A DNA stretch of 64,000 nt from Gammaproteobacteria bacterium. Its GTDB lineage: Bacteria; Pseudomonadota; Gammaproteobacteria; CAIRSR01. How positions within the stretch are numbered: position 1 is the stretch's first letter; each line of letters opens with the position of its first letter. Where the stretch lies: positions 1 through 64,000 of the forward strand of contig CAUYTY010000206.1 in assembly GCA_963575655.1 (NCBI GenBank), in the 5' to 3' direction. The position numbers and the translations under genes were made by a program. Of this stretch, positions 20,142-52,700 are shown piece by piece. The notes below the pieces were generated by a model, which was given only the letters and a program-made list of their open reading frames with translations, had not been told where the DNA came from and did no database searches.

Positions 20142-20519
20142 GTCAATCACCCCGGGCTAAAGCCCGGGGCTTGTGAAAGCAAGCCCGAGATTGACCAGCC
20201 TTAGTCCGAGAAATCGGACTACGTTGCAACGAAGTACAAGACTCACCTTGGGGCGCTTCCTCAACTCCAAGCTCTGAAAGCAGCAGAAGCAGACACGCGA
20301 CGGGTACGCACGAAACGGTCTGCTGCAAGGTTCGCAAGAATCGAAGCTGCGTTGCAACATTGGCGAGGGGAGCCACACCGTAAGGTGTGCGTCACTAGGC
20401 CCTTACGGGCTGACAGCCGGGAAAGACCGGCAACTTTAAAGATTTTGCTATCCAATGGGGCGGAAAAAACCGTCCCCTTTCCTCCCCGCCCTCAAGGGCG
20501 GGGTTTCTCGGGGACACTG
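20142..20519. mobile_element. 378-bp IS200/IS605-like non-coding element, copy 1
   Basis: Almost identical to 52323-52700, with no gaps. The left end holds the hairpin ccccgggct-aa-agcccgggg and then gggcttg-tgaaag-caagccc; the right end holds ccccgccc-tcaa-gggcgggg followed by tttctcggggacactg. Such GC-rich end hairpins are typical of IS200/IS605-group elements. There is no transposase or TnpB. In copy 2 the right hairpin differs by a paired C-to-T and G-to-A change, which keeps the stem. The element ends one base before the ATG of the next gene. Confidence 0.7.
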
Positions 20520-50000: not shown

Positions 50001-50988
50001 ACCCCCCGCACCGGTAGCCGCACCGGGGAAGGGGGCGATGGCGGTGGGATGGTTGTGGGTCTCCACCTTCATCAAGATGTGGATATCTTCCGCATGGTCG
50101 CCGTAATGACCCGCGTTAGGGTCCGCAAAAAAACGTCGCCCCGGCCAGCCAACCATCACCGCAGCGTTATCACGATAGGCAGAGAGGACATGCTCGGGAG
50201 ATTGCCGATGGGTGTTACGAATCATCGTAAAAAGCGAATGTTCCGCAGATTGTCCATCCACCACCCAGTCAGCATTGAAGACCTTGTGACGACAGTGCTC
50301 AGAATTAGCCTGAGCGAACATCATCAGCTCCACGTCCGTGGGATTACGCCCAAGAGCCGCAAAACTCTCTAGCAGATAATCGATCTCATCGGCCGACAGG
50401 GCCAACCCCAGGTCGCTGTTTGCCTGAACCAGCGCAACACGCCCCCCCCCCCAGTATGTCTACCAGCGAAAGTGGTACGGGACTGGCCTTGAGGAACAGA
50501 CCATCGGCCTCCTCCGGGCTATAAAGCACAGTCTCAGTCATGGGGTCATGAAGGTGCGCGGCAGCGAAGGAAAATGCCGCCTCCGAGAGTAGGACAGTGC
50601 TGGCGCCTAGGCCTAGATCCAGTCCGGTGTCACTCACGTCCAAGGAATAGGCGATACCTCGTTCCAAGCGACGTACCGAAACCAAACCACAGTGGTGAGC
50701 GATCTCCGTGGCCCGGCTCGACCAGGGTGAGAGAGTCCCGAGTCGTGGCACCACCCACAGGATATCCCCCGGCGGAGACTCGCGGGGAGAAGGCGGGCCA
50801 TAGTCCAATAACTGGTCCAACACCGCGCGCTCGGCGTCGGTTAGGCGTTGCCCTAGGTCCACGAAGTGGACAAATTCCGCGCTTAATCCCCGAAGCCCAG
50901 GAATACCGGAGGCCAAGAGGGTGTGCAGCTTATCCAGACGGAAGGTAGAAAGGGCTAGTGCCCCGCGCAGTCGCAACACACTCGACAT
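47049..50988 (-). CDS. purL: Phosphoribosylformylglycinamidine synthase, frameshifted in a G tract
   Basis: The large PurL of purine synthesis. From ATG 50988 the first part ([21 protein letters not shown] to SLVDILGGG) runs into a run of eleven G (complement of 50442-50452) and leaves frame. The second part continues with [41 protein letters not shown] through the glutaminase ([11 protein letters not shown] with the catalytic Cys, PHPERMF). With ten G the two halves join as [12 protein letters not shown], giving 1312 residues against about 1295 in E. coli, and the rest looks intact. So the gene is functional except for one extra G. It converts FGAR, ATP and glutamine to FGAM. Confidence 0.93.
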
Positions 50989-51009: not shown

Positions 51010-51213
51010 TGGATTACAGATCGCAAACGCGCGAAAGTTCCCTGTTCAGGAACCGGGAAATCCCTATGATACCGGAAAGGCGCGGGGTCTGCCCCACTAT
51101 CATGCCTTACACCGATGATCGAACCTGAGGAAAAAGGGAACTCAATTATTTTATATTGATTTTTCGGGTACATTATCGAAAAAGTCATGTAAGTCACTGC
51201 CCATACAGGTGTT
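51010..51213. other. purL upstream region
   Basis: Holds the presumed purL promoter (minus strand) and the left edge of the DnaA-box array. An open frame on the minus strand here reflects repeated DNA and is not called a gene. Confidence 0.4.
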
Positions 51214-52080
51214 GTAGTGGTTATCCCCGGGATCTGTGGATAACTCTGTGGATGAGGTGGGAGCAAGGCCCGCAAACCCGCATCACATCTGCCTCGTGGC
51301 ATCTCTGACCACATCCCAACCAACCGGATTAGGTGTTAATAAACAGCATGTTATACAATCCTGGCGCAGATTACAAAGTGATGGTTGCGACCAAACCTGA
51401 CCATTATACCCGGTTGTGCATAACTTTTAGGTAGAATTGACATGCGCTTCGCGATAGGACGGGGTAGGGTGACGACCATGGAGAATAATCTCTCTAAGAC
51501 TGAGAGATATATCGTAACCTCCTGGTCGTAGAGGCGTTGTGGTAGTTATCCCCAGAACCTGTGGATAACTCTGTGGGTGAGTTGGGAGCAAGCCTCCCAA
51601 AACCGCACCGCACCTACCTCCCCGTGTCACCGATCACACCGTAGTCAATAGAATTAGTTATTTGAAAACAATACATTGAACAACTCCCTTATCTTTGCGG
51701 AGAGTGTTAACAGCAAAACCCGAGGGTTGCACTTGGTTGTGCATAACTTTCCCGGTAGGTTCAACATTGGCATAGAAGCCAAACGGGATGGCATGTACAA
51801 AGGTAATTCGTCCGAGGGTATTGCCTTGCCTGGTGCGCAATCTGCTGACCGTGCAAGGATTGTCGTGGTTATCCCCGAAACCTGTTGATAACTCTGTGGA
51901 TGACATGGGGGGAAGGTTCGTAAAGCCGTGTTACGCCTGACCGATCGCACAGCTGCCTACTTGTTGACCAGTAAGATATAATCTTTAATATACAATAATT
52001 TATACATATTGATGGAATTCATAAATAACCGTTGAGATCGAATCTAGCAATCATCTTTGGTTGTGCATAACTTTTTTGTC
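51214..52080. other. Threefold ~324-bp array of DnaA-box-like sites; candidate replication origin
   Basis: Three diverged units each hold TTATCCCC (51221, 51546, 51869), then TGTGGATAA or a variant (51235 and 51560 perfect; TGTTGATAA at 51883), then TGTGGATGA-like (51247, 51572, 51895), and about 193 bp further TGTGCATAA (51415, 51738, 52062). Unit spacing is 325 and 323 bp for the first site and 323 and 324 bp for the last, although much of the sequence between has diverged. TGTGGATAA is the reverse complement of the DnaA box TTATCCACA. The third unit contains a very AT-rich stretch (about 51972-52029), as in a DNA unwinding element. No gene is supported. Flanks are purL and kup, not dnaA or mnmG. 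Confidence 0.55.
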
Positions 52081-52322
52081 AAGCTTGACATTCATCTTTG
52101 CTCCGCCAGTTGCTGTGTTGATCACATTGAATTGTCTGGGAGATCGGATATTACCCCCTTTCCATCATGTACAAAGTGTGTGAGTAGGAGCTAACAACAG
52201 AAAAAGACCGCCAGCGTTGCTGGTTTTTTAGGAAGGCTGGTCAGTTAAACTGCTCCCGGAAGCTTGTGCAGCTTCGTCTAGGCATTTTCTCTTCATTGGT
52301 AGGTGTTTTGGTTTGCAAAGGA

Positions 52323-52700
52323 GTCAATCACCCCGGGCTAAAGCCTGGGGCTTGTGAAAGCAAGCCCGAGATTGACCAGCCTTAGTCCGAGAAATCGGAC
52401 TACGTTGCAACGAAGTACAAGACTCACCTTGGGGCGCTTCCTCAACTCCAAGCTCTGAAAGCAGCAGAAGCAGACACGCGACGGGTACGCACGAAACGGT
52501 CTGCTGCAAGGTTCGCAAGAATCGAAGCTGCGTTGCAACATTGGCGAGGGGAGCCACACCGTAAGGTGTGCGTCACTAGGCCCTTACGGGCTGACAGCCG
52601 GGAAAGACCGGCAACTTTAAAGATTTTGCTATCCAATGGGGCGGAAAAAACCGTCACCTTTCCTCCTCGCCCTGAAGGGCGAGGTTTCTCGGGGACACTG
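52323..52700. mobile_element. 378-bp IS200/IS605-like non-coding element, copy 2
   Basis: Collinear with 20142-20519 and nearly identical. Differences include one in the left hairpin (agcctgggg, giving a G-T pair) and a compensating pair in the right hairpin (cctcgccc-tgaa-gggcgagg). It carries no transposase. It lies about 110 bp upstream of kup, after a stretch with no gene. Confidence 0.7.

Follow-up and report, generated by a model that had tools for sequence, protein, structure and literature searches.

In Escherichia coli, the DARS (DnaA-reactivating sequence) sites recharge DnaA, the protein that starts replication. Their core is defined by three DnaA boxes, I to III, with equal spacing at both sites and with box I opposite in orientation to boxes II and III (PMC5742627), and they work through head-to-head dimers of ADP-DnaA (PMC8682772). 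Published accounts of DARS conservation concern species close to E. coli (PMC4245941, PMC8682772). Analysis of a 64-kb window (the whole stretch of DNA under study), which lies on a 90.6-kb contig of a 261-contig draft genome, revealed three diverged units at 51.2 to 52.1 kb that carry a common set of DnaA boxes with a period of about 324 bp. Comparison with the E. coli sites makes it highly probable that this region (51197..52085, + strand, between purL and kup) consists of three DARS-type elements in tandem. DARS is a known kind of element, and it is the three-in-a-row arrangement that appears to be new; in the open literature that we searched, neither tandem DARS arrays nor a class-wide module of core, IHF site, and box IV are described, which is not proof of absence.

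When both strands are read, each unit has box I on the forward strand, and boxes II and III follow on the reverse strand with starts at +14 and +26 bp from it; in all three units box I is opposed to the other two, and both orientation and spacing are identical to those of the DARS1 and DARS2 cores of MG1655. A search for triplets of +/-/- boxes with 14/12 spacing, each box within two mismatches, picked out all three window units, the two E. coli sites DARS1 and DARS2, and a further site on contig C28 of the same genome; the oriC and datA loci of E. coli, the genome's own oriC candidate, the rest of the 64-kb window, and five shuffled windows gave no match. The locus is noncoding, as the initial annotation had described it (only short overlapping open reading frames are listed, none of them convincing), and, given the oriC inferred on contig C198, it is distinct from oriC.

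DARS1, between bioD and uvrB, shares with the units the orientation and 14/12 spacing of boxes I to III and a similar core sequence (GTTATCC..CTGTGGATAAC); unlike the array, it is present in a single copy, and the 260 bp downstream of it contain neither an IHF site within one mismatch nor a TGTGNATAA box IV. DARS2, between rppH and mutH, has the same core geometry, additional DnaA boxes and, downstream of the core, matches to the IHF consensus at +93 and +109 (PMC4245941). It too is a single copy, its IHF site lies about 11 bp closer to the core, and it differs further in using Fis sites (FBS2-3) and in arranging its additional boxes in another way.

Sites of the three units

The core of unit 1 comprises box I (TTATCCCCG, 51221..51229, +), box II (TTATCCACA, 51235..51243, -, at +14 from box I), and box III (TCATCCACA, 51247..51255, -, at +26); these are followed by an IHF-like site (AAACAGCATGTTA, 51341..51353, +) that starts at +120 and has two mismatches to WATCAANNNNTTR, and by box IV (TTATGCACA, 51415..51423, -) at +194. 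Unit 2 repeats this order with box I (TTATCCCCA, 51546..51554, +), box II (TTATCCACA, 51560..51568, -), box III with two mismatches (TCACCCACA, 51572..51580, -), an IHF-like site with one mismatch at +120 (AAACAATACATTG, 51666..51678, +), and box IV at +192 (TTATGCACA, 51738..51746, -). Unit 3 has box I (TTATCCCCG, 51869..51877, +), box II with one mismatch (TTATCAACA, 51883..51891, -), box III (TCATCCACA, 51895..51903, -), an IHF-like site with two mismatches at +121 (ATACAATAATTTA, 51990..52002, +), and box IV at +193 (TTATGCACA, 52062..52070, -). Box I of the array ends in CCCC, not CACA.

As written on the forward strand of the window, TTATCCCC starts at 51221, 51546, and 51869; TGTGGATAA starts at 51235 and 51560 and is replaced by TGTTGATAA at 51883; sites like TGTGGATGA start at 51247, 51572 (where the sequence is TGTGGGTGA), and 51895; and TGTGCATAA, the fourth box, starts at 51415, 51738, and 52062. 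The recurrence of these sites in the same order in three units, which had been noticed at the outset, was thus found at every position. So was the retention of a 323- to 325-bp spacing while the intervening DNA drifted: measured from start to start, the core block recurs after 325 and then 323 bp and the last box after 323 and then 324 bp, and identity between units, in 20-bp bins, is 0.65 to 0.9 over the core and 0.15 to 0.3 in mid-spacer, compared with a mean of 0.25 for random 300-bp pairs. The 16 bp around the last box (GGTTGTGCATAACTTT) are identical in all three units. Because the core is conserved and the last box lies in 16 identical base pairs while the mid-spacer has fallen to random identity, we regard the units as old duplications with constrained sites rather than an assembly repeat. 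Selection on box sequence and spacing, with DnaA as the probable binding protein, had been suggested earlier and is supported.

Alternative readings and the location of the origin

Among the alternatives, a datA-like locus, in which ATP-DnaA would oligomerize on boxes to either side of an IHF site and so undergo ATP hydrolysis and inactivation, resembles the array in one respect: in datA, too, DnaA boxes surround a single IHF site (PMC5742627), and boxes III and IV of each unit are co-oriented with the IHF-like site between them. The essential datA boxes, however, all share one orientation (PMC5742627). E. coli datA, which inactivates DnaA, has its boxes head to tail and lacks the +/-/- triplet with 14/12 spacing, whereas the array has boxes in both orientations and contains a DARS core in each unit, and we consider a datA-like function very improbable.

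The suggestion that the region serves as oriC of the chromosome or as origin of a second replicon, at which DnaA would assemble and melt the AT-rich stretch at 51972-52029, draws on the many DnaA boxes, on that stretch beside them, on the divergent flanking genes (purL on the - strand, kup on the + strand), and on a shallow local dip in GC skew at 48 to 52 kb. The AT-rich stretch does exist, but it is the same segment that covers the IHF-like site of unit 3, which offers an explanation for it other than an unwinding element. The box geometry is that of DARS, and a stronger cluster lies elsewhere, at C198:5232-5814 (locus L187, 5220-5890), which is the densest cluster of exact TTATNCACA boxes, with 7 exact boxes (compared with 5 at the array locus) and, if one mismatch is allowed, 14 boxes within about 580 bp. 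This cluster, between the gene for a pyrophosphate-dependent phosphofructokinase and glyA-nrdR, consists of two imperfect tandem copies of a seven-box DnaA module with a period of about 408 bp. Cumulative GC skew, which had been proposed as a check, is V-shaped on C198 with a sharp minimum at the box cluster; on the window's contig it shows no lasting reversal at the array and, after the dip, falls on to the far end (-592 at 52 kb, -908 later).

Gene neighborhood had also entered the argument, and the array is indeed flanked by purL and kup and not by dnaA (contig C247) or mnmG (contig C241). The array has no replication gene at its sides, and none of dnaA, dnaN, mnmG, and rpmH adjoins it; none of these adjoins the C198 cluster either, so that this feature discriminates little. 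We considered an oriC at dnaA or mnmG and set it aside, neither locus having a box cluster. In relatives with complete genomes, the units lie away from the origin. In one of these genomes, G037, two DARS-type cores, homologous to the window units, lie at 0.83 and 3.04 Mb, outside the sampled skew minimum near 0.51 to 0.68 Mb, which is close to mnmG and a dnaA-like match. With a box cluster at the skew minimum of C198, skew still falling beyond the array on the window's contig, and the G037 cores away from the minimum, the array is unsupported as oriC, and the genome's own origin, judged by these features, is likely to be on C198. A search of a plasmid collection with the array gave no match, which leaves a plasmid-borne element unsupported, and purL and kup are chromosomal genes. 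To an origin of either kind, of the chromosome or of a second replicon, we attach almost no weight. The DNA of the C198 candidate showed no blastn conservation in 55 relatives.

The module across Gammaproteobacteria

When up to three mismatches were allowed, 41 of 56 relatives had the core pattern; with a limit of two, so did 289 of 369 genomes of the class. The reversed pattern, searched as a control, gave no match in either set. The spacing of the core is thus kept class-wide; a comparison of close relatives for conserved spacing had been proposed as a check. To survey what follows the core, we used 52 units from other genomes and accepted IHF consensus matches with at most one mismatch on the + strand. 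Such a match occurs at +117..+124 from box I in 32 of these units, compared with 0.47 per 8-bp bin of background, and 26 have a TGTGNATAA box IV at +190..+208, which in most of them lies at +201 to +207 and in some at +191 to +194. The IHF-like sites of the array are weaker matches but occupy this same position; the chance of their falling so is about 1e-3 (AT-matched) to 1e-5. A TGGG or AAGC motif after box III was dropped as a candidate, similarity being seen in only 8 to 9 of the 52 units, too few.

A passive cluster of extra boxes that soaks up DnaA is scarcely credible: it would explain why a stretch without genes carries several boxes of high and medium affinity, but a fixed orientation, a 14/12 spacing, an IHF site at a set position, and a set phase of box IV, all conserved across the class, are not needed for titration. 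The initial annotation had offered a DnaA-titration locus as one option and came close in placing a DnaA-binding locus away from the origin; the specific match is to reactivation by DARS, not to plain titration.

The module is usually present in a single copy in Gammaproteobacteria. Same-strand pairs of cores, 201 to 692 bp apart, occur in G008, G036, and G053; unlike the array, these comprise two copies and, where examined, have another gene neighborhood (the G036 pair adjoins priA). Among the matches listed for the 56 relatives, three copies were found only in the genome under study. Phasing of the copies by helical turns was considered and not adopted: the spacings of 201, 272, 324, and 692 bp are near whole turns, but four values prove little.

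The gene for the replication restart helicase, priA, adjoins a DARS-type unit in five of the relatives' loci that were examined (L025, L027, L028, L036, and L038). These units are intergenic, lie upstream of priA, and come from diverse gammaproteobacterial families. A gene of about 1,290 codons near the units of L027 and L028 was considered as purL and rejected; tblastn with PurL finds nothing there, which argues against an ancestral synteny of purL and DARS.

Predicted function, close relatives, and surroundings

If the region is a tandem DARS-type array, as we think highly probable, DnaA would occupy boxes I, II, and III of each unit, and the opposed boxes I and II would hold two ADP-DnaA molecules head to head and so promote release of ADP. 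An IHF bend about 120 bp downstream could fold box IV (+192 to +194) back onto the core, where DnaA bound to box IV, by touching the core, might assist or time the exchange. The apo-DnaA released in this way would rebind ATP and become competent to start replication at oriC, elsewhere in the genome and probably on C198. Three units in a row might provide a higher local capacity for reactivation or allow cooperation between units. Binding of DnaA and IHF, ADP release, looping, and the benefit of tandem copies are all predictions from the arrangement of sites.

Going further, and tentatively, we speculate that a standard gammaproteobacterial module, made up of the core, an IHF site at about +120, and box IV at about +193 or, one helical turn further on, +204, might have been amplified here into a single cooperative station for DnaA reactivation whose copy number tunes initiation; we hold this to be possible but on balance doubtful. 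Work on DARS has dealt almost entirely with E. coli and its close relatives, and a module shared across the class, in which the IHF position is fixed and a fourth box is present, would offer a testable general architecture for DnaA recharging. The likely oriC of the genome is an imperfect tandem duplication too, and in this setting the triplication would amount to a natural experiment on how dosage affects the control of initiation.

The genome encodes Hda and IHF-alpha, both above curated cut-offs. Hda acts in RIDA, which produces ADP-DnaA. Hda above cut-off is absent from the same-genus genome G001 and present in G056, which belongs to an uncultured Thiotrichales bacterium, the nearest named MAG, whose PurL is 86% identical to that of the window. 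In the core search of the 56 relatives, the core was absent from G001, from the same-family genomes G002 and G003, and from G056; G003 has one match at three mismatches, which lacks a good box I. The lack of both Hda and the core in G001 suggests that this close relative has lost the ATP/ADP switch of DnaA; these absences may also reflect a gap in the draft assembly.

With no core in these four genomes, the array is not conserved close by. In relatives purL and kup are not neighbors either, and the array is found beside neither gene; since the two genes stand apart and the core is missing in close relatives, the purL-kup junction and the array are lineage specific here. The fourth triplet of this genome is a single one (C28:7717-7751, locus L042), near a contig end and next to a fructosamine kinase gene, and no TGTGNATAA fourth box is found before the contig ends. 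A run of 12 C divides purL between two frames (window positions 50386-50455), which reflects either a sequencing error or a frameshift, and a split into two frames is also seen in this genome's mnmG (C241). The window also contains two HEARO RNAs (Rfam RF02033; 114 and 116 bits) at 52323-52559 and 20142-20378, with no recognizable iscB open reading frame adjacent; one of them sits between the array and kup.
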